A stretch of DNA of 42,597 bases. It comes from a virus. The notes under the pieces are model-generated. The model made no database searches. It saw nothing but the letters and a program-made list of their open reading frames with translations, and was not told the DNA's origin. Where the stretch lies: positions 1-42,597 of IMG/VR virus record IMGVR_UViG_3300046471_000247, one strand, 5' to 3'. This document shows, piece after piece, positions 6,679 to 42,597 of this stretch. The translations under genes and the position numbers were made by a program. The number at the start of each line of letters is the position of its first letter. Position 1 is the first letter of the stretch.

Positions 6679-9345
6679 TCATTGGTCGGACTTCTTTTTG
6701 AATACCCAGCAGCGCACCGACGCCGGGCCATTCATGCGAATGGCGCTGTGCACAGTGCGGCTGGCTTCGATAAAGGGATGCTTCTTGCTGGTAGGCAGGT
6801 GTTCGCGCAGCTCGGCGAGTGTCGGGATATCGCTCCAACGCTCGCGTGCCAGTTGCATCCATTCGAGGATGTTCACGGCGATCACGTCCGAGTCGCTGCT
6901 GTGGTTGAGGAACGGCCGCTGGCCGCCTCCATTCAACTCGTAGTAGCGCTCCCAGAAGTCCTGCACCACGGGGTGATCGGCGCCGATGGCCTTCTGCCGC
7001 TCTGTCGTCATCATGGTCAGGCGCTCGATCACCTGGTTGCGGAACGGCGCCACTTGGGGAATCACGATTTCCATGGCTTCGGCCATGGCCATCAGCTGGG
7101 CATGGTTCTTCGCCAGGCGCACGCTTTTCACGTGGTCGTTGTCCAGCAGCATGCGTTCGTAAACCGGCATGCGTTCGAGGAAACGCTCCATCACCTGCGT
7201 CTCGGCGCGCGCCGATGCCACGACGAAATAGCTCAATTCGTCTGCCGTGAGGCCGTTGAGGATGTCGGCCTTGCGCTTGCCTTCGTCGCTATGGCCCTCG
7301 CGGGTCATAAAAACGTGGCAGATGCGCTGCATAACTGCGTCTTCCGCGTTCACCGGGCGGTTTTGCTCGATGACGATGGATCCGCGGAAGGGCGGTTCGT
7401 AGGTTTCGTTGCCGGAGCTTTTCACACCTGTGGTGCGCGTGCTGCGACCGTTGTAGAGCGATTTCAGCTCATCAAAGTCGAAGCGCGAAGACTTCGAGGT
7501 GTTGGTGTCGCGGTCGCCTTCCATCAGCACGACCGGCATGTTGGCCACCTGCACGAACGTACGCGCGCGGCCCGCCGCGGTGGACTTGGCCGGGTCGAAG
7601 CCTTCGTAGGTGGGGCGGCCTAGCAGGCGGTTGAGCAGCATCACCAGCGATGTCTTGCCGGATCCGGCCTCACCGACCAGCTCGAAAAACGGGAAGCTCT
7701 CCTGCTTGGCACGCACCTGTTCGGCGAACAGCGAGGCAAACCAAAACACCAGCGCCACCATGCCCTTGCTGCCGTAGACCTCGAATAGCAGCGTCGGCCA
7801 TGCCTGGTTGAACTCGGCAGCGACGTGGTTGATGCGGTGGTCGATTGAGCTGGTGGTTTTCACGTTGGTCTTGCGATCGAGTTCGAAATAGTCCTCGTCG
7901 TTGATCTCGATCACGCGGCCCTCTTTGATCGCCACGTCGCCGAACACGTAGGCGCCGTGCTCCTTCGAGTAGCCGATGAAATCGATGGCCTCCACGTGCT
8001 TGAGGCGCATCAAGCGGTGGCCGTATACCCGCGACAGCTGATCCTTGGTCCCGTTCCACGACGCGCCGGCCATGATGGACAACAGACGCACGTCGAACTG
8101 CGCCGGCGTGGCGACGTGGTCGGGCTTGAAAGCGGCTTTCACCGTTTTCTGGTGCGGTGCGGTGATGCGGAAGAAGTAGTGCGAGTCGTCGGTCACTGCG
8201 TTGCGCTGGAAATACAGGGCCACCGGGTGACAGGTGGAAATGCGCTCGATCGCGCCGGCCTGTTTGATGGCCTCGTCGCGGCGTTCTTCCTCCGTCATTT
8301 CCTCGGCCTTGTCGGCGAGCGCTTGCCACGCCTTGTCGAAGCGCGCCTCGTTGAGCGCAAACCAGTAGAGCTGTTCGCCGAACTCGATGGGGAAGCTCTT
8401 GTAGGCCTTGTGCTTGTAGATCAGCCGCGCTTTCTCCGCGACGCTCTCGGCCACTACCAGGGCACCTTCGTGGCGGTACTCGTCCAAGTTGGCAGGTTCG
8501 AGCCGGAAGCGCTGGAATGCTTCGTTCCAGTCGATTTTGCGGTCTTCGTACGCCTGGGGAATTACCGCGGCGCTGGACTTCCAGCCGTCTTGTTTTGCGC
8601 GGGTATGCCAGCGTCCGATGTACTCGATTCCGGCAGCATCGCCGTCCAGTGCCCACACCAGCTTCGGGCGCCTAGTCCCTTCGGGATAGAGCCGTTCGAG
8701 CGTGGTGTTCGGGTAGTTGTTGCACGACATGGCGGCGATCGCGGGAATGCCGGCGAGGCATAGTGCAATCGCGTCGAAGATGCCCTCCGCTATCCACAGC
8801 TCGGTGACGGCGCTGATATCGATCAGCGTCACCGGCGGGAGCCAGGCATACCCACGGTAGGACGTGCCCGGAAGCATGCGAGCCTTCTTCTTGCCGAAGC
8901 GCGCGGGGCGATCGATCAGGCGCTCCCATTGGCCGCCTCCATCGATGGTAAAGCGCACCGTGGCGGTGCCGGCATTCAGATCCCTATCGTGATACCACTC
9001 CTGCCGGTAGCAGCTCTGGAAGCGGCCAATCTCAAGGCCGCGCGAGTTCACCAGATAAGCGTCAGCGGCCGCAGTGGGCGAGTTCTCGGTGGCCGGATAG
9101 CGGTCCGACCAAGACTGGAAAAGATCGTCGTAGAGATCCTTGACGAAACCCTCCCAGCCGCACTTGTTCTTGCGGCCGCACTGCACGCGCCACGGCGAAT
9201 CGGCGCTACCGAACACTTCCTTCTTGCCGCAACCAGGGCATCGGCCTTCCTGCAACCACTTACCGTCGTGGCTGACCTTGAGGTCGAAATCGCCCTTGAG
9301 CCGCTCCAGGATGTCCCTGCGCAGCTCTTCGTCCATGTTCGCCAT
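6679..9345 (-). CDS. Bifunctional primase-helicase (zinc finger, Toprim, P-loop ATPase)
   Basis: An 888-residue replication protein. Near the N-terminus C-P-G-C and C-G-R-K-N-K-C-G-W form a primase-type zinc site. A Toprim region near 200-260 contains W-I-A-E-G-I-F-D-A and then W-A-L-D-G-D-A-A-G. A helicase domain has the Walker A motif G-E-A-G-S-G-K-T near residue 560, followed by hydrophobic V-V-L-M-E-G-D. This layout is like P4 alpha and other primase-helicases, not the P2 gpA nicking enzyme. GAGGAA precedes ATG 9345. It is the largest gene of the early operon and probably drives phage DNA replication. Confidence 0.88.
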   Translation of the reverse strand: MANMDEELRRDILERLKGDFDLKVSHDGKWLQEGRCPGCGKKEVFGSADSPWRVQCGRKNKCGWEGFVKDLYDDLFQSWSDRYPATENSPTAAADAYLVNSRGLEIGRFQSCYRQEWYHDRDLNAGTATVRFTIDGGGQWERLIDRPARFGKKKARMLPGTSYRGYAWLPPVTLIDISAVTELWIAEGIFDAIALCLAGIPAIAAMSCNNYPNTTLERLYPEGTRRPKLVWALDGDAAGIEYIGRWHTRAKQDGWKSSAAVIPQAYEDRKIDWNEAFQRFRLEPANLDEYRHEGALVVAESVAEKARLIYKHKAYKSFPIEFGEQLYWFALNEARFDKAWQALADKAEEMTEEERRDEAIKQAGAIERISTCHPVALYFQRNAVTDDSHYFFRITAPHQKTVKAAFKPDHVATPAQFDVRLLSIMAGASWNGTKDQLSRVYGHRLMRLKHVEAIDFIGYSKEHGAYVFGDVAIKEGRVIEINDEDYFELDRKTNVKTTSSIDHRINHVAAEFNQAWPTLLFEVYGSKGMVALVFWFASLFAEQVRAKQESFPFFELVGEAGSGKTSLVMLLNRLLGRPTYEGFDPAKSTAAGRARTFVQVANMPVVLMEGDRDTNTSKSSRFDFDELKSLYNGRSTRTTGVKSSGNETYEPPFRGSIVIEQNRPVNAEDAVMQRICHVFMTREGHSDEGKRKADILNGLTADELSYFVVASARAETQVMERFLERMPVYERMLLDNDHVKSVRLAKNHAQLMAMAEAMEIVIPQVAPFRNQVIERLTMMTTERQKAIGADHPVVQDFWERYYELNGGGQRPFLNHSSDSDVIAVNILEWMQLARERWSDIPTLAELREHLPTSKKHPFIEASRTVHSAIRMNGPASVRCWVFKKKSDQ

Positions 9346-9608
9346 CAGACCGATTCCTCGCGGCCGGTCCACATCGCGCCATGCGGGCCGCACTTGGCGC
9401 CCATACGACGCATGCGGTCGCAGTCGGTGCCTATGTACGTGACGCCGCGATCTTCCATCGAGCGCAGATCGTCGAAGAACTCGTCCATTTCCTCGGTGGT
9501 CGCCGGCGGCGGCGCGCACTCGGGCGGAAGTGTGCAGAGCAGCCACTTGGAACTATCCACCTGCGTGTGGAACCCGCAGGTGGCGCAGTGCGGATAGGCG
9601 AACTTCAT
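9345..9608 (-). CDS. Small cysteine-rich phage protein
   Basis: An 87-residue protein with C-A-T-C-G near residues 8-12 and further cysteines at about 25, 31, 63 and 73, suggesting metal binding. An acidic stretch, E-E-M-D-E-F-F-D-D-L, follows near 39-48. No family is recognised. It overlaps the primase-helicase start by an ATGA junction and the upstream gene by four bases, so it is translationally coupled to both. Confidence 0.6.
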   Translation of the reverse strand: MKFAYPHCATCGFHTQVDSSKWLLCTLPPECAPPPATTEEMDEFFDDLRSMEDRGVTYIGTDCDRMRRMGAKCGPHGAMWTGREESV

Positions 9609-9862
9609 GCCGTAACCCCGCGCACGCTCATGCCCAGCGTTGCGGCCGCCCATTTGAGGTGCGTGAACGCCAGAGGGAAGTGGGCGCCGCCCACAGCAAG
9701 GCACGGCGCGCCGTCGGCAAGCACATGCACCTGGTCACGCGACGCGCTGGCGATCGCGATCTGCATGCCGCGCAAAACCATGGCCGCGGTGACGTAGCCG
9801 GTTGTGCTATTGGTGACGGAAAGGTCGAGGCCGATGTCCTCGCGGAGCGTGAGCGTGCTCAT
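9605..9862 (-). CDS. Hypothetical phage early protein
   Basis: An 85-residue soluble protein, predicted alpha/beta, with no recognised motif. It overlaps its neighbours on both sides by four bases (ATGA junctions), which supports both ends. It stands between the gene that follows the RNA leader and the cysteine-rich protein in the replication operon. Confidence 0.6.
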   Translation of the reverse strand: MSTLTLREDIGLDLSVTNSTTGYVTAAMVLRGMQIAIASASRDQVHVLADGAPCLAVGGAHFPLAFTHLKWAAATLGMSVRGVTA

Positions 9863-10122
9863 GCGGCACCGCCGTGATCTTGCACGGCCGCCTCGACGTC
9901 CTGAATGGTTTGGCGCAGGCGAAAGTGCAGCGCGCGGATCAGCTCGTAGACGTCGTCGGGCTCGATCATGCCTTCGCGCAGCGAGAGGGGCAGGCCAGTG
10001 GCCGCGGTGAGCAGCGCGTCGTTCGCGCAGTGCAACTCGAAGAAGGTGGTCTTGATGCGCTGCCGGCGATCGGCGAGACGGGCGCGCAGGCGTGCACGAA
10101 CAACACGGTGACGTGAGGTCAT
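9859..10122 (-). CDS. Small helical protein, first gene behind RNA immunity leader 1
   Basis: An 87-residue helical protein, basic at the N-terminus. Its C-terminal part, with D-D-V-Y-E-L-I-R-A-L-H-F-R-L, resembles the same region of the proteins at 40231 and 41181 (x-x-V-Y-x-L-(I/L/V)). ATG 10122 is only seven bases beyond a nine-base segment complementary to the CI-like RNA. Translation of this gene is therefore likely the direct target of the antisense RNA. In P4 and P1 the equivalent position holds small genes such as icd or kil; no toxin activity is visible here. Confidence 0.65.
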   Translation of the reverse strand: MTSRHRVVRARLRARLADRRQRIKTTFFELHCANDALLTAATGLPLSLREGMIEPDDVYELIRALHFRLRQTIQDVEAAVQDHGGAA

Positions 10123-10128
10123 GAGGCA

Positions 10129-10168
10129 GTTCCTAAGCCAGGTTATGCCCGGCACCCCGCTGCTAAAC
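10129..10168 (-). promoter_or_regulatory. seqC of leader 1: downstream target of the CI-like RNA
   Basis: In the minus-strand transcript GTTTAGCAG (10168-10160) and CTTAGGAAC (10137-10129) are complementary to CTGCTAA and GTTCCTAAG in the RNA just upstream. The second segment ends seven bases before the start codon of the 10122 gene, so pairing could block ribosome access or alter folding and termination, as seqC does in P4. Confidence 0.7.
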
Positions 10169-10179
10169 AGGGTGACGAA

Positions 10180-10255
10180 CGACGCAGGGTTAGCAGACCG
10201 GGGACTTAGGAACCCGGCAGGCCCGAAGGCCTCCCTGCGCCGCCCGCCATAAAGC
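10180..10255 (-). ncRNA. P4 CI-/P1 C4-type antisense immunity RNA, locus 1
   Basis: The minus-strand RNA carries a conserved start (TTATGGCGGGCGGCGC), a stem AGGCC-UUCG-GGCCU (10219-10232) with a UUCG tetraloop, and then the pairing segments GTTCCTAAGTCC (10213-10202) and CTGCTAACCC (10196-10187). Both segments have complements upstream (seqA) and downstream (seqC) in the same transcript. That seqA-seqB-seqC order is the defining layout of P4 CI RNA. The RNA should be processed from the leader of the replication operon and shut it off in the lysogen. Exact ends are approximate. Confidence 0.8.
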
Positions 10256-10332: not shown

Positions 10333-10383
10333 CCTAAGTCCATTGATCGGGCTGCTAAACCCGGTCGCCGATTTGGCGGCGAC
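10333..10383 (-). promoter_or_regulatory. seqA of leader 1 with conserved upstream hairpin
   Basis: The minus-strand RNA has a hairpin GTCGCCG-CCAAAT-CGGCGAC (10383-10364). Next comes GGGTTTAGCAGCCC, which shows TTTAGCAG in a GGG/CCC-closed loop, and then GGACTTAGG (10341-10333). The two unpaired segments complement CTGCTAACCC and CCTAAGTCC of the CI-like RNA. A weak -35 candidate, TTGACA, is at 10419-10414, but no good -10 follows. Confidence 0.7.
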
Positions 10384-10526
10384 GGCCGAAGCATCCCTCC
10401 GGCGGAGGGCGTGTGTCAACGGTTGTTCGCGCTTTTTCGTGGTCATGAGGCAAGCCGTGTCCATTCCGGCCGCCAGAGGCAGCCGGTCAGGGTGGAAAAG
10501 GAGGGTGGTGGGCTACGTCGCCGGCG

Positions 10527-11518: not shown

Positions 11519-11573
11519 ATAGGAGAGTTATTCATGGCGACGGGTTACACTGCCAAAGTGTCACACAAAACGA

Positions 11574-11602
11574 ATGCTATCCCACGTAATGTGGGATTAC
11601 AA
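11574..11602 (-). promoter_or_regulatory. Candidate early promoter with operator in its spacer
   Basis: On the minus strand TTGTAA (11602-11597) and TAGCAT (11579-11574) are separated by 17 bases. The spacer is filled by the perfect palindrome ATCCCAC-GTAAT-GTGGGAT. Repressor bound there would block RNA polymerase, fitting control of the early operon starting at 11518. Confidence 0.6.
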
Positions 11603-11617
11603 CCCACGTTCAGTGGG
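11579..11617. promoter_or_regulatory. Tandem CI operators
   Basis: ATCCCAC-GTAAT-GTGGGAT (11579-11597) and CCCAC-GTTCA-GTGGG (11603-11617) share the half-site CCCAC. Their centres are 22 bp apart, two helical turns, good for cooperative binding. A separate small inverted repeat, ACACT-gccaa-AGTGT, is at 11547-11561. Confidence 0.7.
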
Positions 11618-11641
11618 ATCATTTCAATGCAGGGACAGAGC

Positions 11642-12052
11642 ATGGAAGTGAACGCCGCCGATGTGGTCGACCGCTTGCAGCAGGTGTATGGCGTCACCAC
11701 CGACGTCGCCATTGCCGCGGCCCTTGGGCTTTCGAAAAATGCGCCAGGAAACTGGCGCAATCGTAATGCCGCGCCTTACGAGATATGCGCAAACGTCGCG
11801 GCCCGGCGGGGCATCTCGCTGGACTGGCTATTGTTTGGCGTAGGCCGCATGGAGCGCGCCGTTGGCAGCGGCGATAGCTCGAATCCGCCGCTGCTGTCCG
11901 CTCCAGCCGAAAGAATCACACAATTTGTGTGTTACTGGGATGCCCATCGATCAGTAGACGAAGTCGTTTGGCTGGAGCAGCAACTGAAGCGAGCCGTGTC
12001 GGAATACGGGGAGTGGCTAGCATCGCCTGCAGCTACGCAGCCGCCGAAGTAG
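11642..12052 (+). CDS. Phage CI-type repressor
   Basis: A 136-residue regulator. The first 65 residues are a CI-family helix-turn-helix domain: V-D-R-L-Q-Q-V-Y-G-V-x-x-D, A-A-A-L-G-L-S-K-N-A-P-G-N-W-R-N-R, P-Y-E-I, and I-S-L-D-W-L-L-F-G. The remaining C-terminus has W-L-E-Q-Q-L and is probably for dimerisation; no LexA-type cleavage motif is seen. It is divergent from the early genes across two operators. ATG 11642 starts right before the domain and leaves the operators non-coding. ATG 11627 and ATG 11534 (with a strong AGGAG) are in-frame alternatives, but the latter would translate the operators. Confidence 0.8.
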   Translation: MEVNAADVVDRLQQVYGVTTDVAIAAALGLSKNAPGNWRNRNAAPYEICANVAARRGISLDWLLFGVGRMERAVGSGDSSNPPLLSAPAERITQFVCYWDAHRSVDEVVWLEQQLKRAVSEYGEWLASPAATQPPK

Positions 12053-12109: not shown

Positions 12110-13333
12110 TCACTGGAGCCCTGTCGGGTTCTCGTAAAAGTACTCCCAATTATCCGCATTCAATCGCGCCTGACCTATGTTCGATCCCGCCAGCTGATGG
12201 GCCCCGGATTGGCCGTAAACGTAGTCGGCCGTCGCTGGCACATGCGTCACGCCGGCGAGCGCAAAGGGGAAGTGCGAAATCTCATGCATGATGATGCCGG
12301 CCATGGAGTCGGTCCCGGTGATCGGCCGGGAGAAGAAGGCAGGGCAAACGTAAATGAGATACGACGTAGATGTCTCCGCATGTGCCGCCGTATTGGCGTC
12401 CCAACCATCGCAGATAGAACACACAAGATTCACTTGACCACTGGACGCCTTTAGTTGGTTGGCGAACATCTGCATTGGCGCCTCCGTATGCGTGGTGAGT
12501 GCATCGCCGTTGACCGCAGCGTCTTCCTCAACCCCATCGATAACGCCGTCGTCGCCTAACCAATACTTAAAACGGTCAGATGGCCTCCAGGTAGACACCC
12601 ACTCTTTCACCGGGTCAGGGATCCACTCGTTGTCCCAATGGTTATATTCGTAGTCGAAACCCTCGCTGGCCATGCTTTGCGCTGCCGCCAAAGCGGGCGG
12701 TATCTGGTCGAGCAGATCCTGTCCGCACTCGTCATTCCCGAGTAAGGCTGACTTCGCAATAGGAAGTGCCAAATGTTGGGCGCTTGTCGTTGGCTTCTGA
12801 ATCAGACGGCTATTCACCCAGAGCTTGAGAGTATTGCTCGTGATGGCATCGCGGACTGTTCCACTTGCTGCTGCCCGCATAGTAGAAGCAGCAGCACTTG
12901 GAGAGGCAGCGACAAGAGTGGATGGGTCCTGCGTGTAAGCGACAGAGTAAGAACCATCAGACATTGCGTAGTCTTGGGCAATATCGATGGTTTTGGTGAT
13001 GGACTGTCCCGGCCGAAGTTCAATGAAGCTATCCGCGTTCATATTTACGAACTTCACGTTGCGACCAATGTAGCTAACTGGCTTGCCGGCGCTGTCGGAC
13101 ACGACAAAGATATTGCTCGCCAGCCTGCCCCCGGCCTCAACAAACGGCGTTTTCCACTTCAAAACAGAGATCGGCTGATCGCCGACGTTCTGCATGGAAA
13201 AAACTATCTTGCCAACTTCTTTGTCTTGCTGTGCTGCGGGAACTGCGAGGACGATCTGCAATTTGCCGGACGCATGGACGGCCGATGCAAATAAAAATGC
13301 GAGCACAAGTAGGCGTTGCACGAAGCGTTTCAT
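12110..13333 (-). CDS. Secreted M35-type (aspzincin) metalloprotease
   Basis: A 407-residue protein with a signal peptide (basic start, hydrophobic core near 5-17, cleavage near A-V-H-A-S). Near residue 360 H-E-I-S-H is the zinc-binding HExxH, followed by A-T-A-D-Y-V-Y-G, the aspzincin GTxDxxYG signature with Asp as third ligand (Gly-Thr is Ala-Thr here). The N-terminal half resembles the beta-sandwich propeptide of peptidyl-Lys metalloendopeptidases. ATG 13333 has GGGAG upstream. Not needed for virion or lysogeny, it sits alone behind the late operon and is probably a lysogenic-conversion gene whose product is exported from the host. Confidence 0.88.
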   Translation of the reverse strand: MKRFVQRLLVLAFLFASAVHASGKLQIVLAVPAAQQDKEVGKIVFSMQNVGDQPISVLKWKTPFVEAGGRLASNIFVVSDSAGKPVSYIGRNVKFVNMNADSFIELRPGQSITKTIDIAQDYAMSDGSYSVAYTQDPSTLVAASPSAAASTMRAAASGTVRDAITSNTLKLWVNSRLIQKPTTSAQHLALPIAKSALLGNDECGQDLLDQIPPALAAAQSMASEGFDYEYNHWDNEWIPDPVKEWVSTWRPSDRFKYWLGDDGVIDGVEEDAAVNGDALTTHTEAPMQMFANQLKASSGQVNLVCSICDGWDANTAAHAETSTSYLIYVCPAFFSRPITGTDSMAGIIMHEISHFPFALAGVTHVPATADYVYGQSGAHQLAGSNIGQARLNADNWEYFYENPTGLQ

Positions 13334-13433
13334 GGTGTAACTCCCTGTAAGCACCGAATTGAAATTAAAGCGTTCGCCGTATTGGCGCCGGCTAGCATAA
13401 GTGTGGGGCGCCAAAGAACCGTGAAGGCAGTAC

Positions 13434-13643
13434 CTAAGTATCAAATTGGGCGACGCCGTCGCTGGTACAGGCGTGAACGGTATCGAAGGGGCCTGGCGAC
13501 GAGGACCGCCGACGGTACTCATCCAAGAGTACTTTCACCGTGCTCAAGAGCGAACGTGGGATGCGCACGGGCGTCGTAGGCTCCCGGTAAGGGCCGCGTG
13601 GTCGTGTAACGGCCGCGGGTGGCTTGCGTGCGGGATTACTCAT
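13434..13643 (-). CDS. Small protein downstream of gene D
   Basis: A 69-residue basic protein. The central R-I-P-R-S-L-L-S-T-V-K-V-L-L-D-E-Y-R-R near residues 28-46 is a strand-helix pattern seen in small phage or plasmid regulatory proteins. It overlaps the end of gene D by an ATGA junction, which fixes its start and places it last in the D operon. No function is assigned. It is followed by about 100 bases without a gene before the protease. Confidence 0.55.
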   Translation of the reverse strand: MSNPARKPPAAVTRPRGPYREPTTPVRIPRSLLSTVKVLLDEYRRRSSSPGPFDTVHACTSDGVAQFDT

Positions 13644-37099: not shown

Positions 37100-37804
37100 C
37101 TACGGCCCGGAAGTTTGGCGCCTGTATGCAGGTTCGAGGTGATTTATGTTTACGGCAATGGCCAAGGGAAGCATAAATTTCGTCGTCTCATGGATCTGAT
37201 TTTTCTGGTCGACGACAATTTCGATTTGGTGGGGGAGCAGCTCACTCGAAACGTTCGCTACGATTACACCCCATACTCCGTTTGTTCCTGATTGAACTAT
37301 TGGTGCCCCGCTGGCACCCCGTAATGCGGGAAAGGAAAGCTCCAAGGCGTCAACGCCGGAGCCATCTCTGCTGAGCGGGAGGGCGCGGTGCTGCCTGGTC
37401 ATATTTCCTAGCCGCGTCGCAGGGTTGATCGAAATGCGATCGCCGAGCGTTTGGGTGGTCCCGTACTCAAAGGTCATTACTTGTGCATTCGGATAGAAAG
37501 GCTGGTCGAACATCGGCACAAGATGGCGGCTAGGGCTGTAATCAGCGACTTTTAGTAGGGCCAGGTCGTGGCGCTGGTCACGCTCTACAACTCTCGCCGA
37601 AAAAAGACCGAGTGCACCAAGGGATGGGGCGATCAGATAGTCGTCATCGTCGGTAAGCACATGCTCCGCTGTCGCCAGCAGTCCATTAGGTCCGGCAAAA
37701 AATGCGGTTCCTAGAAAAGCTGGTGCACTGGCCGGCCCGGCCAGCAGCGGAACAATCGCCTCACTAGGTTGAAACGGGGACGATGGACCGATTTTGAAAG
37801 TCAT
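37100..37804 (-). CDS. Trypsin-like serine protease, accessory
   Basis: A 234-residue protease of the trypsin-2 type. The catalytic triad is visible: His in A-T-A-E-H-V-L near 50-56, Asp in Q-R-H-D-L-A-L-L-K-V near 82-91, and Ser in R-G-A-S-G-A-P-I-V near 163-171. No signal peptide or membrane segment is seen, so it is likely cytoplasmic. It is the last gene of a three-gene operon next to cos, in the P2 old/tin accessory locus. Cytoplasmic trypsin-like proteases in such loci are often effectors of antiphage systems; that role is inferred. Confidence 0.8.
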   Translation of the reverse strand: MTFKIGPSSPFQPSEAIVPLLAGPASAPAFLGTAFFAGPNGLLATAEHVLTDDDDYLIAPSLGALGLFSARVVERDQRHDLALLKVADYSPSRHLVPMFDQPFYPNAQVMTFEYGTTQTLGDRISINPATRLGNMTRQHRALPLSRDGSGVDALELSFPALRGASGAPIVQSGTNGVWGVIVANVSSELLPHQIEIVVDQKNQIHETTKFMLPLAIAVNINHLEPAYRRQTSGP

Positions 37805-39400: not shown

Positions 39401-40234
39401 CTATACGTGCTCCAAGCTTGCCGCGTCCAGAGCTTCTTGCGCCGAGTGAGAGCGGAAGCAATAGCAGCGAACGGTGGCTTTACGATGCCGGCTGTTTACG
39501 CCGGTGTATTGAATAAAGCGGTGATCGCCGGATAGGGCTTTAGCAAGTTCCGACGCGGATGCCAGTGGCATGCCGTGTTGGATCGCCAGCTTCGACACTT
39601 CGGGAACATTGTAGGCGCAGATCAATTCCTTGACGTGGTGATCTAGATCGGCGCCATACGCGCTTTCCAGCACGGTGACGGCCTGCCAGAAATCCTGGCG
39701 CACTCGGTCGAAAGGATCGGGTAGTGGTTTGGGTTCGAATGCATCGAGCGGCGGCGCTTGAAAGCCCGCCTCGGGTGCGACAGTCAGCAGCATCGCATGC
39801 AGGCTTCGGCGCTGTTCCTTGCTCTTGGCCTCTACGAGTTGATCGAGCAGCTTAGACGCCCGTGCCATGGCGCGATCCTGGGCGACAGATATACCGGCGG
39901 CGTGCTTGGTGTAGCCACCTGTTCGCCGAATGGTCGGCAGTACGTCCTCGAAGATCCACCGCTCGATGCGCTTGGCCTCGGGAAGGTGGCTCCCAACGAT
40001 CAGGCGCCAGACGTCTGGTTCTTCAATGACGCGGACTTCTTGGCGGCGTCCAAGGGCGTCAACGATGGGGTGCAGTTTCTGCACCCCATCGCAGTGCGAT
40101 CGAATGGCGGTGGTCGGGTCGGCATAGCCGAGCAACTCCGCCACATCCTTGCCGACGAACCAGGGGGCACCGTCGATGTTGAGGGTGCGCACTTCGCGGG
40201 TGCCGAAGTGAAAGGGCATGACATCCGTGGTCAT
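39401..40234 (-). CDS. BRO-N family antirepressor
   Basis: A 277-residue protein. The first 105 residues form a BRO N-terminal domain: F-G-T-R-E-V-R-T-L-N, G-A-P-W-F-V-G-K-D-V-A-E-L-L-G-Y, and R-W-I-F-E-D-V-L-P-T-I-R-R-T-G-G-Y near 92-108. The C-terminal domain has no clear match. BRO-N proteins with different C-termini often act as Ant antirepressors. It overlaps the small gene in front by four bases and lies downstream of a CI/C4-type RNA, the same layout as icd-ant behind c4 in P1. Confidence 0.88.
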   Translation of the reverse strand: MTTDVMPFHFGTREVRTLNIDGAPWFVGKDVAELLGYADPTTAIRSHCDGVQKLHPIVDALGRRQEVRVIEEPDVWRLIVGSHLPEAKRIERWIFEDVLPTIRRTGGYTKHAAGISVAQDRAMARASKLLDQLVEAKSKEQRRSLHAMLLTVAPEAGFQAPPLDAFEPKPLPDPFDRVRQDFWQAVTVLESAYGADLDHHVKELICAYNVPEVSKLAIQHGMPLASASELAKALSGDHRFIQYTGVNSRHRKATVRCYCFRSHSAQEALDAASLEHV

Positions 40235-40461
40235 TGGCGCGTTCCGGTCAGGGCTTCGAGCTGTGCGATGGCGTGGTCGAGCTGGCCCGCGACCGCCTGC
40301 AGCAGATGGTAGACGCCGTTGTCATCGGCGGTGCCGGCATGCATGCCGGCTGTGATGCCAGCCGCGGCCATCTGCAAGGCGTGATAGGGCGCGCGGAGAT
40401 CTTCGACAGCGCGGGAAAGGGTGCGGAAATCGGGTCCGAACGGGCGAGCGGATGCATTCAT
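40231..40461 (-). CDS. Small helical protein, first gene behind RNA immunity leader 2
   Basis: A 76-residue helical protein. D-N-G-V-Y-H-L-L-Q-A-V near residues 48-58 matches the corresponding region of the 9859 and 41181 proteins. The nine-base seqC segment GCAAATGAA (minus strand, 40465-40457) contains this gene's start codon ATG, so RNA pairing would directly hide it. It occupies the place of icd in the P1 c4-icd-ant operon. Confidence 0.65.
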   Translation of the reverse strand: MNASARPFGPDFRTLSRAVEDLRAPYHALQMAAAGITAGMHAGTADDNGVYHLLQAVAGQLDHAIAQLEALTGTRQ

Positions 40462-40511
40462 TTGCTTGATTCCTAGGTATTTCCTTGGGAATCCGCCGCT
40501 CCGAGACCAAA
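40457..40511 (-). promoter_or_regulatory. seqC of leader 2: downstream target of the RNA
   Basis: On the minus strand TTTGGTCT (40511-40504) complements AGACCAA, and GCAAATGAA (40465-40457) exactly complements TTCATTTGC of the upstream RNA. The second segment includes the ATG of the 40461 gene. Confidence 0.72.
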
Positions 40512-40529
40512 CGGGGCGACGGACGACGC

Positions 40530-40600
40530 GCGGTTGGTCTACCGGGCAAATGAACCGGCGAGCCCGAAGGCTCCCGCGCGCCGCCCGCCATAAAACTGGG
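40530..40600 (-). ncRNA. P4 CI-/P1 C4-type antisense immunity RNA, locus 2
   Basis: The minus-strand RNA has the same conserved TTATGGCGGGCGGCGC opening as locus 1 and a stem GAGCC-UUCG-GGCUC (40560-40573). The pairing segments differ from locus 1: TTCATTTGC (40554-40546) and AGACCAACC (40540-40532). Complements lie in seqA (upstream) and seqC (downstream). It precedes a small gene and a BRO antirepressor, so it should hold the antirepressor off in the lysogen. Ends are approximate. Confidence 0.8.
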
Positions 40601-40648
40601 CAAGGAGGTGGCGTTTAACCACCCCCTTCGCGCCATACCGAGGGCAAC

Positions 40649-40677
40649 AAAAAAGCGCCGTCATCGGTGATGGGCGC
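40649..40677 (-). terminator. Intrinsic terminator inside leader 2
   Basis: On the minus strand GCGCC-CATC-acc-GATG-ac-GGCGC is followed by six T. It is nearly the same as the terminator of leader 1 and lies in the same place, between seqA and the RNA. Confidence 0.75.
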
Positions 40678-40684
40678 TGAGCGC

Positions 40685-40729
40685 CATTTACTTCGGGAGA
40701 CCAATCCCGGTGGCCGATTTGGCGGCCAC
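40685..40729 (-). promoter_or_regulatory. seqA of leader 2 with conserved upstream hairpin
   Basis: The hairpin GTGGCCG-CCAAAT-CGGCCAC (40729-40710) has the same loop as in leader 1 and compensatory changes in the stem. Then CGGG-ATTGGTCT-CCCG displays ATTGGTCT, complementary to AGACCAA of the RNA, and GTAAATG complements CATTT. A weak promoter candidate, TTGCAA-18-TAACGT, lies just upstream (about 40765-40736). Confidence 0.7.
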
Positions 40730-40826
40730 GGCGCGACGTTACTTGGAAGCGCAACGGTTTTGCAACCGCGGTTTAGCAGTCCAGGCCGTCTCACGGTTCG
40801 TGTGAAAAGAAGCGGCCCTCGGAAAA

Positions 40827-41083
40827 GTGTAAGCCGGTAAAAAGGACCCCGAAAATCGGCCCTAACGAACTGATCGGACTAGGAAAATCGCACTGTAAGA
40901 ATTGCGTATTTCGACGTATTTCTGACTGTAAGCCTTTGATTTGCCGTGGTGCGACCTTACAGTCCAGTAGTGTAAGAAAGTTACAGTTAAATACAGTAAA
41001 CCTTACAGTCGGCCGCACCAAGTTTCATAAGCAAAAACAACGAATTAGGACAGGCTTGCCGTTCACCTTACACTTCTTACAGT
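40827..41083. repeat. Cluster of CTTACAGT/ACTGTAAG repeats
   Basis: Full copies are at 40892-40899 and 40925-40932 (ACTGTAAG) and 40956-40963, 41002-41009 and 41076-41083 (CTTACAGT). Partial copies are at 40827-40833, 40970-40976, 40981-40987 and 41067-41073. They fill an AT-richer 260-bp region without a gene, between the integrase operon and the leader of the BRO operon. They could be operators, integrase or excisionase arm sites, or replication iterons. Confidence 0.65.
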
Positions 41084-41180: not shown

Positions 41181-41411
41181 TCAGCCGGCTGCGCTGGCGG
41201 ACTCGAGGATGCCTTCGTGGCGTTGGCGCATGTCGCTGGCCAGCGCGACCAGGCGCAGGCGTATCGCCTCCGCCTGGGTGGCCACCAGCGTGTAGACGTG
41301 GGCTGGATCCACGACGCCGGCGCGCAATCCCTCTGACATGCCACTGGCGAGGCTCTCGAAGGCCTCCATGTCGGCGGCGATGCGGTGAATGGCGGCGATC
41401 GTGTTTTTCAT
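41181..41411 (-). CDS. Small helical protein downstream of the integrase
   Basis: A 76-residue helical protein. V-D-P-A-H-V-Y-T-L-V near residues 34-43 resembles the proteins at 9859 and 40231. ATG 41411 follows AGGGAG at eight bases; a longer start at 41507 is possible but has a poorer ribosome site. It is not an obvious excisionase, as it lacks a winged-helix pattern. It might be a regulator exchanged between phage modules. Confidence 0.55.
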   Translation of the reverse strand: MKNTIAAIHRIAADMEAFESLASGMSEGLRAGVVDPAHVYTLVATQAEAIRLRLVALASDMRQRHEGILESASAAG

Positions 41412-41511: not shown

Positions 41512-42597
41512 TCACGCCTGGCCAGTGAGTGGATCGGCCGCGACCGAACGGTCTTTAACGTGCTCGGGGCGCAGGTGGGTGTAGCGCTGCAGCGTGGCCC
41601 ACGAGTCGTGCAAGGTGAATTGCGCGACCTCTTGGATGGCATAACCGGCCTCAAAAAGGCGAGAGGTCGCCTCGTGGCGCAGATCGTGGAAGTGCAGATC
41701 CTCGATGCCCAGCAGTTTGCAGGCGCGTGTGAACGCGGAGCTGACCGATCGATGGTTGTACGGGAATACGCGATCGTCGCCCGCGACCTCGGGCTGTCGT
41801 TCCACGATCGCCCACGCGTCGGGCAGCATGCGGAACGCACGGCGGTTCCCGATCTTCTGTCGGGGATGCTTCACGTCGTCGAGCCACGCGATGCCCTTCG
41901 CCTTATCCAGGTCGGGCCGTTTCAACCGGCAGATTTCCTCTTGGCGCCGGGTGCTGGCCAGCGCATAGAGCATGATGTCGACCATAGGCAGCTCGGCACG
42001 ACCGTCGCGCTTGCCGAAATGCGCGAGCAATAACTTTTCTTCCGCTGGCGTCAGTCGCCGGGCACGACTTCGCGGACGCTGCAGCAGCTTTCGCGCACGC
42101 AACTCGTGGCGCGCATCGTTGATGATGTCGAGGTTGGCATAGATGCCTAGCGACGGCCGCGCCGAGCGCAACACCTGCACGAACCAAATCAGGTCATTGC
42201 CGATCGTGGCGGGTCCGGCACCTTCCGCGCGCCGATCCGAGGCATGCTGCAGGTAGTCGGCCACCGTCAGTGCATGCACCTGGCGCGCGGCGATCGGGTA
42301 GTTCTCCAGTCGCTTGAGATCGGCTTCTTTGGTGCGACCCCAAGCAGCCGTTTTGCCGACTTCGCGCCGATACCAGACAATAACCTCTTTCAATGTGTGC
42401 TTGACGCCGACCAGCTCGCCGCGCGCGCGGCTGATGTCGAGTTCCGACTCCCGGCGGCGCATCCATTCGGCGGCTAACGCCTTGCGGTCGAAGGTCTCAG
42501 CCTCATTGTGTATAACGACGCCGGCGCGTTTGAGCCGGATCTGCGCGGTATAGCCGATCGAGCCGTCCTTACGCCGGCGCGCGGTGATGGTGCCCAC
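41512..42597 (-). CDS. int: Tyrosine integrase of the dusA-targeting type
   Basis: A 361-residue tyrosine recombinase whose GTG start is the last codon of the window. The N-terminus G-T-I-T-A-R-R-R-K-D-G-S-I-G-Y-T-A-Q-I-R is typical of integrases associated with dusA. The catalytic Arg is in R-R-Q-E-E-I-C-R, H-D-L-R-H-E is the second box, and Y in L-Q-R-Y-T-H is the nucleophile. It would integrate and excise the prophage at dusA. The attR site should lie just beyond the edge, so it is transcribed inward from it. Confidence 0.92.
   Translation of the reverse strand: MGTITARRRKDGSIGYTAQIRLKRAGVVIHNEAETFDRKALAAEWMRRRESELDISRARGELVGVKHTLKEVIVWYRREVGKTAAWGRTKEADLKRLENYPIAARQVHALTVADYLQHASDRRAEGAGPATIGNDLIWFVQVLRSARPSLGIYANLDIINDARHELRARKLLQRPRSRARRLTPAEEKLLLAHFGKRDGRAELPMVDIMLYALASTRRQEEICRLKRPDLDKAKGIAWLDDVKHPRQKIGNRRAFRMLPDAWAIVERQPEVAGDDRVFPYNHRSVSSAFTRACKLLGIEDLHFHDLRHEATSRLFEAGYAIQEVAQFTLHDSWATLQRYTHLRPEHVKDRSVAADPLTGQA

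Follow-up and report, generated by a model that had tools for sequence, protein, structure and literature searches.

A second C4-type RNA locus with its own pairing code ahead of a Bro-N antirepressor gene in a P2-like phage

Organization of locus 2

The analysed window is the whole stretch of 42,597 nt. Between its integrase gene (41512-42597) and a gene for an antirepressor, the minus strand carries a locus (locus 2) in which an a1-b1 leader, an intrinsic terminator, a C4 antisense RNA, an a2-b2 segment, a 76-aa ORF and the Bro-N antirepressor gene follow one another in this order. The individual features are as follows.

40690-40742, minus strand: leader target a1-b1 (c4-a1b1, RF03163, 46.3 bits, E 2.4e-10, gathering cut-off 46.7)
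40698-40704, minus strand: a1, TTGGTCT, 7-bp complement of a' AGACCAA
40684-40691, minus strand: b1, GTAAATGG, two G-U pairs with b'
40649-40685, minus strand: leader attenuator, a three-segment arrangement read from the sequence
40512-40595, minus strand: C4 antisense RNA (RF01695, 73.3 bits, E 1.4e-12, gathering score 45), with loops b' TTCATTTGC (40546-40554) and a' AGACCAACC (40532-40540)
40504-40510, minus strand: a2, TTGGTCT, 7-bp complement of a', placed as in other C4 loci
40456-40465, minus strand: b2, GCAAATGAAT, 10-bp complement of b' GTTCATTTGC
40231-40461, minus strand: 76-aa leader ORF in an icd-like position
39401-40234, minus strand: Bro-N antirepressor, 277 aa (PF02498, 1.8e-20; phrog_130, anti-repressor Ant, 1.8e-45)

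The C4 RNA of locus 2 folds with a z-score of -3.7, and none of 200 shuffled sequences was equally stable. Its minimum-energy fold consists of three stems that leave a' and b' exposed, as does that of the C4 RNA in locus 1 (z -4.3). The sequence TATGGCGGG is present where the C4 stem starts, making RNase P cleavage at the GG a candidate processing step. Segment b2 encloses the start codon of the 76-aa ORF (ATG, 40459-40461), and the Shine-Dalgarno sequence AGGA (40471-40474) lies outside b2. An ATGA overlap (40231-40234) joins the stop of this ORF to the start of the antirepressor gene. No Pfam family above cut-off was found for the 76-aa ORF; its homologues include the first ORF of locus 1 (phmmer, about 1e-4) and those of other C4 loci (down to 4e-10).

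In the leader, the c4-a1b1 score falls 0.4 bits under the gathering cut-off, and the isrK model (RF01394, cut-off 50) gives 49.5 bits here and 50.7 bits for the leader of locus 1. The terminator is formed by AGCGCC (40673-40678) and GGCGCT (40654-40659) followed by six T, and it shares an arm with a competing hairpin, GGCGC (40681-40685) with GCGCC (40673-40677). In single-sequence folding without C4, the terminator is the most stable fold of the locus-2 leader, which is not so in the leader of locus 1. Promoter scans upstream of both loci returned no sigma-70-type promoter.

Some neighbouring features deserve mention. A third homologue of the C4 leader ORFs lies upstream of locus 2 (41181-41411), with no C4 match of its own. 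Nine copies of ACTGTAAG or its one-mismatch form, on both strands, fall within 258 bp (40826-41083) on the integrase side of locus 2 (18 such sites against 10 expected in the whole window); they may be arm sites for the integrase or form an operator array. Residues 178-266 of the antirepressor resemble residues 860-955 of the phage primase described below (BLASTP, E 4e-5; both match phrog_20645), so that these two C4-gated proteins may share a domain.

Locus 1 and the remaining phage genes

The same parts recur at a second place in the window, referred to as locus 1, within the early operon of the phage; they are listed here together with the primase, the CI repressor and a CI-like site.

10344-10396, minus strand: leader target a1-b1 (RF03163, 52.6 bits), with a1 TTAGCAG at 10352-10358
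10168-10254, minus strand: C4 antisense RNA (RF01695, 85.7 bits), with a' CTGCTAA at 10190-10196
10160-10166, minus strand: a2
10128-10139, minus strand: b2, GGCTTAGGAACT, 12-bp complement of b', covering the Shine-Dalgarno sequence
9859-10122, minus strand: leader ORF, 87 aa, ATGA-coupled to an 85-aa ORF (9605-9862), itself followed by an ATGA-coupled ORF from 9608
6679-9546, minus strand: Toprim primase (phrog_1139, 1.2e-303)
11534-12052, plus strand: CI-type repressor (PF07022, 6.6e-13)
40789-40805, strand not assigned: TCTCACGGTTCGTGTGA, a third site resembling the CI palindromes (two mismatches), just upstream of the locus-2 leader

As the match to phrog_1139 begins at residue 73, the true start of the primase is probably inside the ORF. 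The C4 RNA of locus 1 lies ahead of a replication primase, as expected of P4-type CI immunity. The CI gene is divergent from the early operon, which comprises an Ogr/Delta-type zinc finger, locus 1, ATGA-coupled small ORFs and the primase. Two palindromes, TCCCACGTAATGTGGGA (11580-11596) and ACCCACGTTCAGTGGGA (11602-11618), fall in the first 28 codons of the CI ORF, the conserved domain of which starts at residue 43. Direct control of ant by CI through the third site is possible, and with 1.7 sites of two mismatches expected by chance in the whole window the match is suggestive only.

An earlier note, made from the DNA alone, had described locus 2 as a repeat of the parts of locus 1 in the same order with different pairing sequences, placed in front of a BRO antirepressor in the layout of P1 c4-icd-ant, with the start codon of the small ORF inside the target segment that it called seqC. 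This description is borne out: both loci have an Rfam C4 match, leader target, terminator, a2-b2 and coupled ORF, the a' loops differ (AGACCAA in locus 2, CTGCTAA in locus 1), and the presence of a second C4-type locus with P1-like layout and a specificity of its own is supported. The note further spoke of one P4-like and one P1-like switch. That distinction applies to the gene downstream (primase or antirepressor) and not to the cassettes, both of which combine a leader terminator with pairing at the translation start.

A cargo gene between the tail genes and CI encodes a 470-aa protein with an M35-type metallo-endopeptidase domain (12110-13522; PF14521, 1.5e-20). Downstream of ant lies the gene of a trypsin-like peptidase (37100-37804, PF13365), and near the left end that of a TMEM175-like channel protein (916-1659, PF06736); these two are cargo or host genes.

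Pairing energies and specificity

Pairing was measured as loop duplex energies against 500 shuffles of each target; plain cofolding was avoided, since the C4 loop-target interaction is a pseudoknot for that method. In locus 2, the real energy was matched by 1 of 500 shuffles for a1, 7 for b2 and 16 for a2. Pairing of b1 is weak and no better than chance (237/500). The corresponding counts in locus 1 are 3 (a1), 2 (b1) and 1 (b2); the energy of a2 is unremarkable (210/500), yet its 7-bp exact match is in place. For a1, a2 and b2 of locus 2, pairing with the own RNA exceeded both cross and shuffled pairing. Energies between the loci were at chance level with one exception, in which b' of the locus-1 RNA (C4-1) can form 8 bp with the Shine-Dalgarno region of the 76-aa ORF (GGTTCCTA/TAGGAATC). 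The best b' duplex at this site reaches -12.2 kcal/mol, and 31/500 shuffles were as good.

This exception would fit an arrangement in which the RNAs are not insulated, b' of C4-1 being an anti-Shine-Dalgarno that also represses the locus-2 ORF; the result would be a one-way hierarchy, with the replication lock holding the antirepressor too. Of the alternatives considered this one survives best, and still we regard it as unlikely. The pairing of C4-1 b' with its own b2 is far stronger (-18.2), and there is no a'-a2 match between C4-1 and locus 2, a' being the loop reported to set specificity in the account given in PMC5320573. According to the same account, citing Citron and Schuster 1990, a 4-nt difference in a' reportedly prevents cross-reaction between P1 and P7. 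The sequences predict that either RNA targets chiefly the mRNA of its own locus and that the two are orthogonal. The stricter claim of the earlier note, that target segments match only their own RNA, has to be relaxed for the Shine-Dalgarno match and for the weak b1 of locus 2.

Conservation and origin of the cassette

For comparison, 75 distinct C4 loci were parsed, and C4 RNAs paired with loci of different a' served as mismatched control. Complementarity to the own RNA was found for a2 in 93%, b2 in 81%, a1 in 97% and b1 in 85% of the loci, compared with 2%, 4%, 9% and 16% in the mismatched pairs. As the swapped pairs keep the common sequence of the family, composition does not account for the difference. 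Long ORFs lying no more than 1.5 kb downstream were surveyed for 67 C4 loci, and domains of primases and antirepressors turn up more often than any other family.

C4 RNAs usually cover the Shine-Dalgarno site, and b2 does so in 42 of 58 loci; locus 2 is an exception, with b2 on the start codon. One could see locus 2 as a relic, inactive or in decay, that accompanies the antirepressor, in line with the leader models 0.4-0.5 bits under cut-off and the chance-level b1. Still, a b2 that sits on the start codon and has a matching b' would not be expected from decay. The C4 fold is intact, a1, a2 and b2 are exact, and terminator, Shine-Dalgarno sequence, ORF coupling and Ant frame are all preserved, which leaves the relic quite unlikely.

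In 63 of the 75 leaders an intrinsic terminator can be recognised in the stretch from b1 to C4. A hairpin of 4-6 bp that shares the 5' arm of the terminator occurs in 50 of these 63 (24% in shuffles), and in 44 leaders the 5' arm of this competing hairpin overlaps b1, in most cases by 1-2 nt. Covariation is seen among all three segments (GGCGC/GCGCC/GGCGC, GCGG/CCGC/GCGG, AGCGC/GCGCT/AGCGC, CGCGG/CCGCG/CGCGG). Because the hairpin overlaps b1 with one arm and shares the other with the terminator, C4 pairing at b1 is predicted to free the terminator; single-sequence folding does not settle which of the hairpins wins. No earlier description of the competing hairpin was found in the literature covered, in which P4 is represented by papers that cite the original work.

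Locus 1 has its closest relative (L171), with 92% identity across leader and C4, in a related phage (identity to the window phage: portal 85%, sheath 86-88%, CI 68%, primase 47%). Between the two, a' changes from CTGCTAA to ACGCCAA and both a1 and a2 change from TTTAGCAG to ATTGGCGT, with b' unchanged. Read from the sequences, this is a natural compensatory triple change and the best evidence that a-pairing is under selection.

The earlier note had called the two loci paralogous, which is correct in the wide sense of homology. A recent duplication of locus 1 inside the phage was considered as the source of locus 2 and rejected: placing the loci as sisters costs 31.75 log-likelihood units (p-AU 0.000245). 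Homology of the first ORFs across C4 loci, together with the third copy at 41181-41411, suggests that the cassette moves as a unit made up of leader, C4 and small ORF. The cassette is also accessory, as relatives with 71% identical primase lack a detectable C4. Searches with locus-2 DNA against phage records gave only short matches in the C4 region.

Proposed mechanism and relation to known systems

Locus 2 is best read as a C4-type immunity cassette that would silence the antirepressor in the lysogen; for this explanation as a whole we estimate a probability of about 0.8. Starting from the C4 fold, complementarity, part order, ORF coupling, gene families and conserved architecture seen in the DNA, we infer transcription, processing, repression, action of Ant on CI and mutual insulation of the RNAs along the following lines. 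A minus-strand transcript from upstream of about 40742 would be processed into the C4 RNA, whose a' and b' loops would pair, in trans or in cis, with a1 and b1 of the leader. This pairing would deprive the competing hairpin of its GGCGC arm, so that termination ahead of the C4 gene is favoured, by analogy with CI RNA in P4. The loops would likewise pair with a2 and b2 at the start codon and stop translation of the 76-aa ORF, and Ant would be switched off with it through translational coupling and polarity, as in P1. When C4 is short, for example upon infection of a naive cell or through titration by leader RNA, the 76-aa product and Ant would be synthesised; inactivation of the CI repressor, the likely target of Ant, would then start lytic growth. 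Locus 1, of the same family with other codes, would gate the primase operon downstream of the divergent CI/early region. In this division of labour CI would repress early transcription, C4-1 restrain replication and C4-2 restrain Ant.

The mechanism draws on the C4 matches, the energies at own targets, the anatomy of the 75 loci, the switch in L171, the attenuator, and the joint presence of a Bro-N Ant and CI in one phage. Counting against it are the promoter scans, the Rfam scores of the locus-2 leader, its weak b1, the C4-1 cross-match and a terminator that is already stable without C4.

C4 RNAs have been described in P1/P7, as an Rfam motif, among the group 1 sRNAs of Acinetobacter baumannii and in Bro zones of satellites (PMC5320573, PMC2864571, PMC10111431). 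Locus 2 is close to P1/P7 c4-icd-ant (immI), which shares the processed antisense RNA with a'/b' loops, the target where a small ORF preceding ant begins, the translational coupling and the specificity set by a'. It differs in having b2 on the start codon instead of the Shine-Dalgarno site, and the phage differs in its Bro-N type of Ant, its P2-like character and its second C4. The CI RNA of satellite phage P4, with seqA-seqC, belongs to the same Rfam family, and its promoter and RNA gene are likewise separated by a leader target and a terminator; locus 1 resembles it further in that it would gate a replication primase. CI-RNA-dependent termination in P4 is treated as known where PMC4825925 and PMC10111431 cite it. 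However, P4 is a satellite with one such RNA, whereas the window phage is of helper type and has two, besides a CI protein repressor. In A. baumannii, several C4-like RNAs with different a'/b' loops occur in one genome, and processing as in P1/P7 C4 was inferred from RNA-seq (PMC5320573); these are spread over the bacterial genome, unlike the two in one phage with adjoining targets found here.

A further close system, Gifsy-1 isrK-orf45-anrP of Salmonella, has a terminated leader RNA of the isrK family and a small ORF overlapping the antirepressor gene by AUGA, and coupling through this overlap has been tested (PMC4825925). There the leader RNA is described as an activator, and for the processed RNA STnc1160 a CI-like action was no more than a suggestion (PMC4825925); in locus 2, leader and ORF are separated by a strong C4 match. 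By analogy, the isrK-like leader RNA could be the main regulator of ant, activating it by sequestering C4 or by opening the ORF start, a trigger more than a lock. The leader scores near the isrK cut-off, and the over 100-fold rise in anrP translation caused by IsrK in trans in Gifsy-1 (PMC4825925), are consistent with this. Such a role is compatible with a C4 lock, the C4 match is stronger than the isrK match, and we consider the trigger as main regulator less likely still. An origin of the two loci from neighbouring prophages or a chimeric record is very improbable: the window is a whole IMG/VR virus record with ends not shown, but only one each of terminase, portal, sheath, tape-measure, CI and integrase were found, in a single P2-like order between the loci, and a single contig of a relative (G812) combines locus 1 with portal, sheath, CI and primase. 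No antirepressor match was found in G812.

Systems of the kind to which locus 2 belongs are known, but their layering as seen here appears not to have been described. In a literature search that took in few subscription papers, no phage was found described with two non-matching C4 cassettes, one on replication and one on an antirepressor; two C4 hits 11 kb apart appear in a Xylella annotation, which does not comment on them (PMC12189769). The few systems from which RNA-based phage immunity is known so far have one RNA each. If the reading is right, a phage that adds two non-matching C4 locks, one for each of two lytic decisions, to a protein repressor would show that RNA immunity can be layered, with a handful of bases for insulation. 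A more general proposition, to which we give slightly less than even odds, is that C4 cassettes are interchangeable, barcoded locks that a phage can stack, with non-matching codes, on different genes (here primase and antirepressor). A change of code would involve a', a1 and a2 switching together, and each lock would act at two levels, the leader attenuator (with an antiterminator overlapping b1) and the start region of the cassette-borne ORF. The loci of the window offer ready-made pairs for asking how many bases orthogonality needs, and the switch between locus 1 and L171 a ready comparison for how heteroimmunity arises. Conservation of the attenuator would account for the retention of the leader target, and IsrK may be recast as the terminated leader of a C4 locus.

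Elements with several C4 RNAs

The same pair of loci was sought in 21 virus records and three genomes retrieved by primase or Ant and in 48 virus records retrieved by cassette DNA patterns. No virus record had more than one C4, with the exception of G796, where the second match is cut by the contig end. Among ten named phages chosen by primase or C4 similarity, three have one C4 and seven have none.

Several C4 RNAs per element are not unique to this phage. Two to four are present in each of eight other genome regions examined, not all of which are certain to be one element; the most distant pairs are some 47 kb apart. Over these regions and the window, a2+b2 energies average -25.2 kcal/mol for own and -15.5 kcal/mol for cross pairing, and not every locus separates cleanly (G391, for one, does not). 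In G256, a Rha protein follows one C4, and the next C4 lies ahead of a P22-type antirepressor and a Prim-Pol primase.

At least ten C4 matches each, from about ten scored candidates per genome, are found in six genomes (G506, G611, G659, G683, G522 and G675). Tandem cassettes with different codes occur at L077 (G256:C239, two), L117 (G434:C237, three) and L118 (G659:C1, two), the ORFs behind the two C4s of L118 being near-identical. The densest case is L078 (G285:C9, 1700-3092), with four C4 RNAs in 1.4 kb and downstream ORFs that include a KilA-N and a DUF927 protein; three of the four have a common b' and different a', each matching its own a2.
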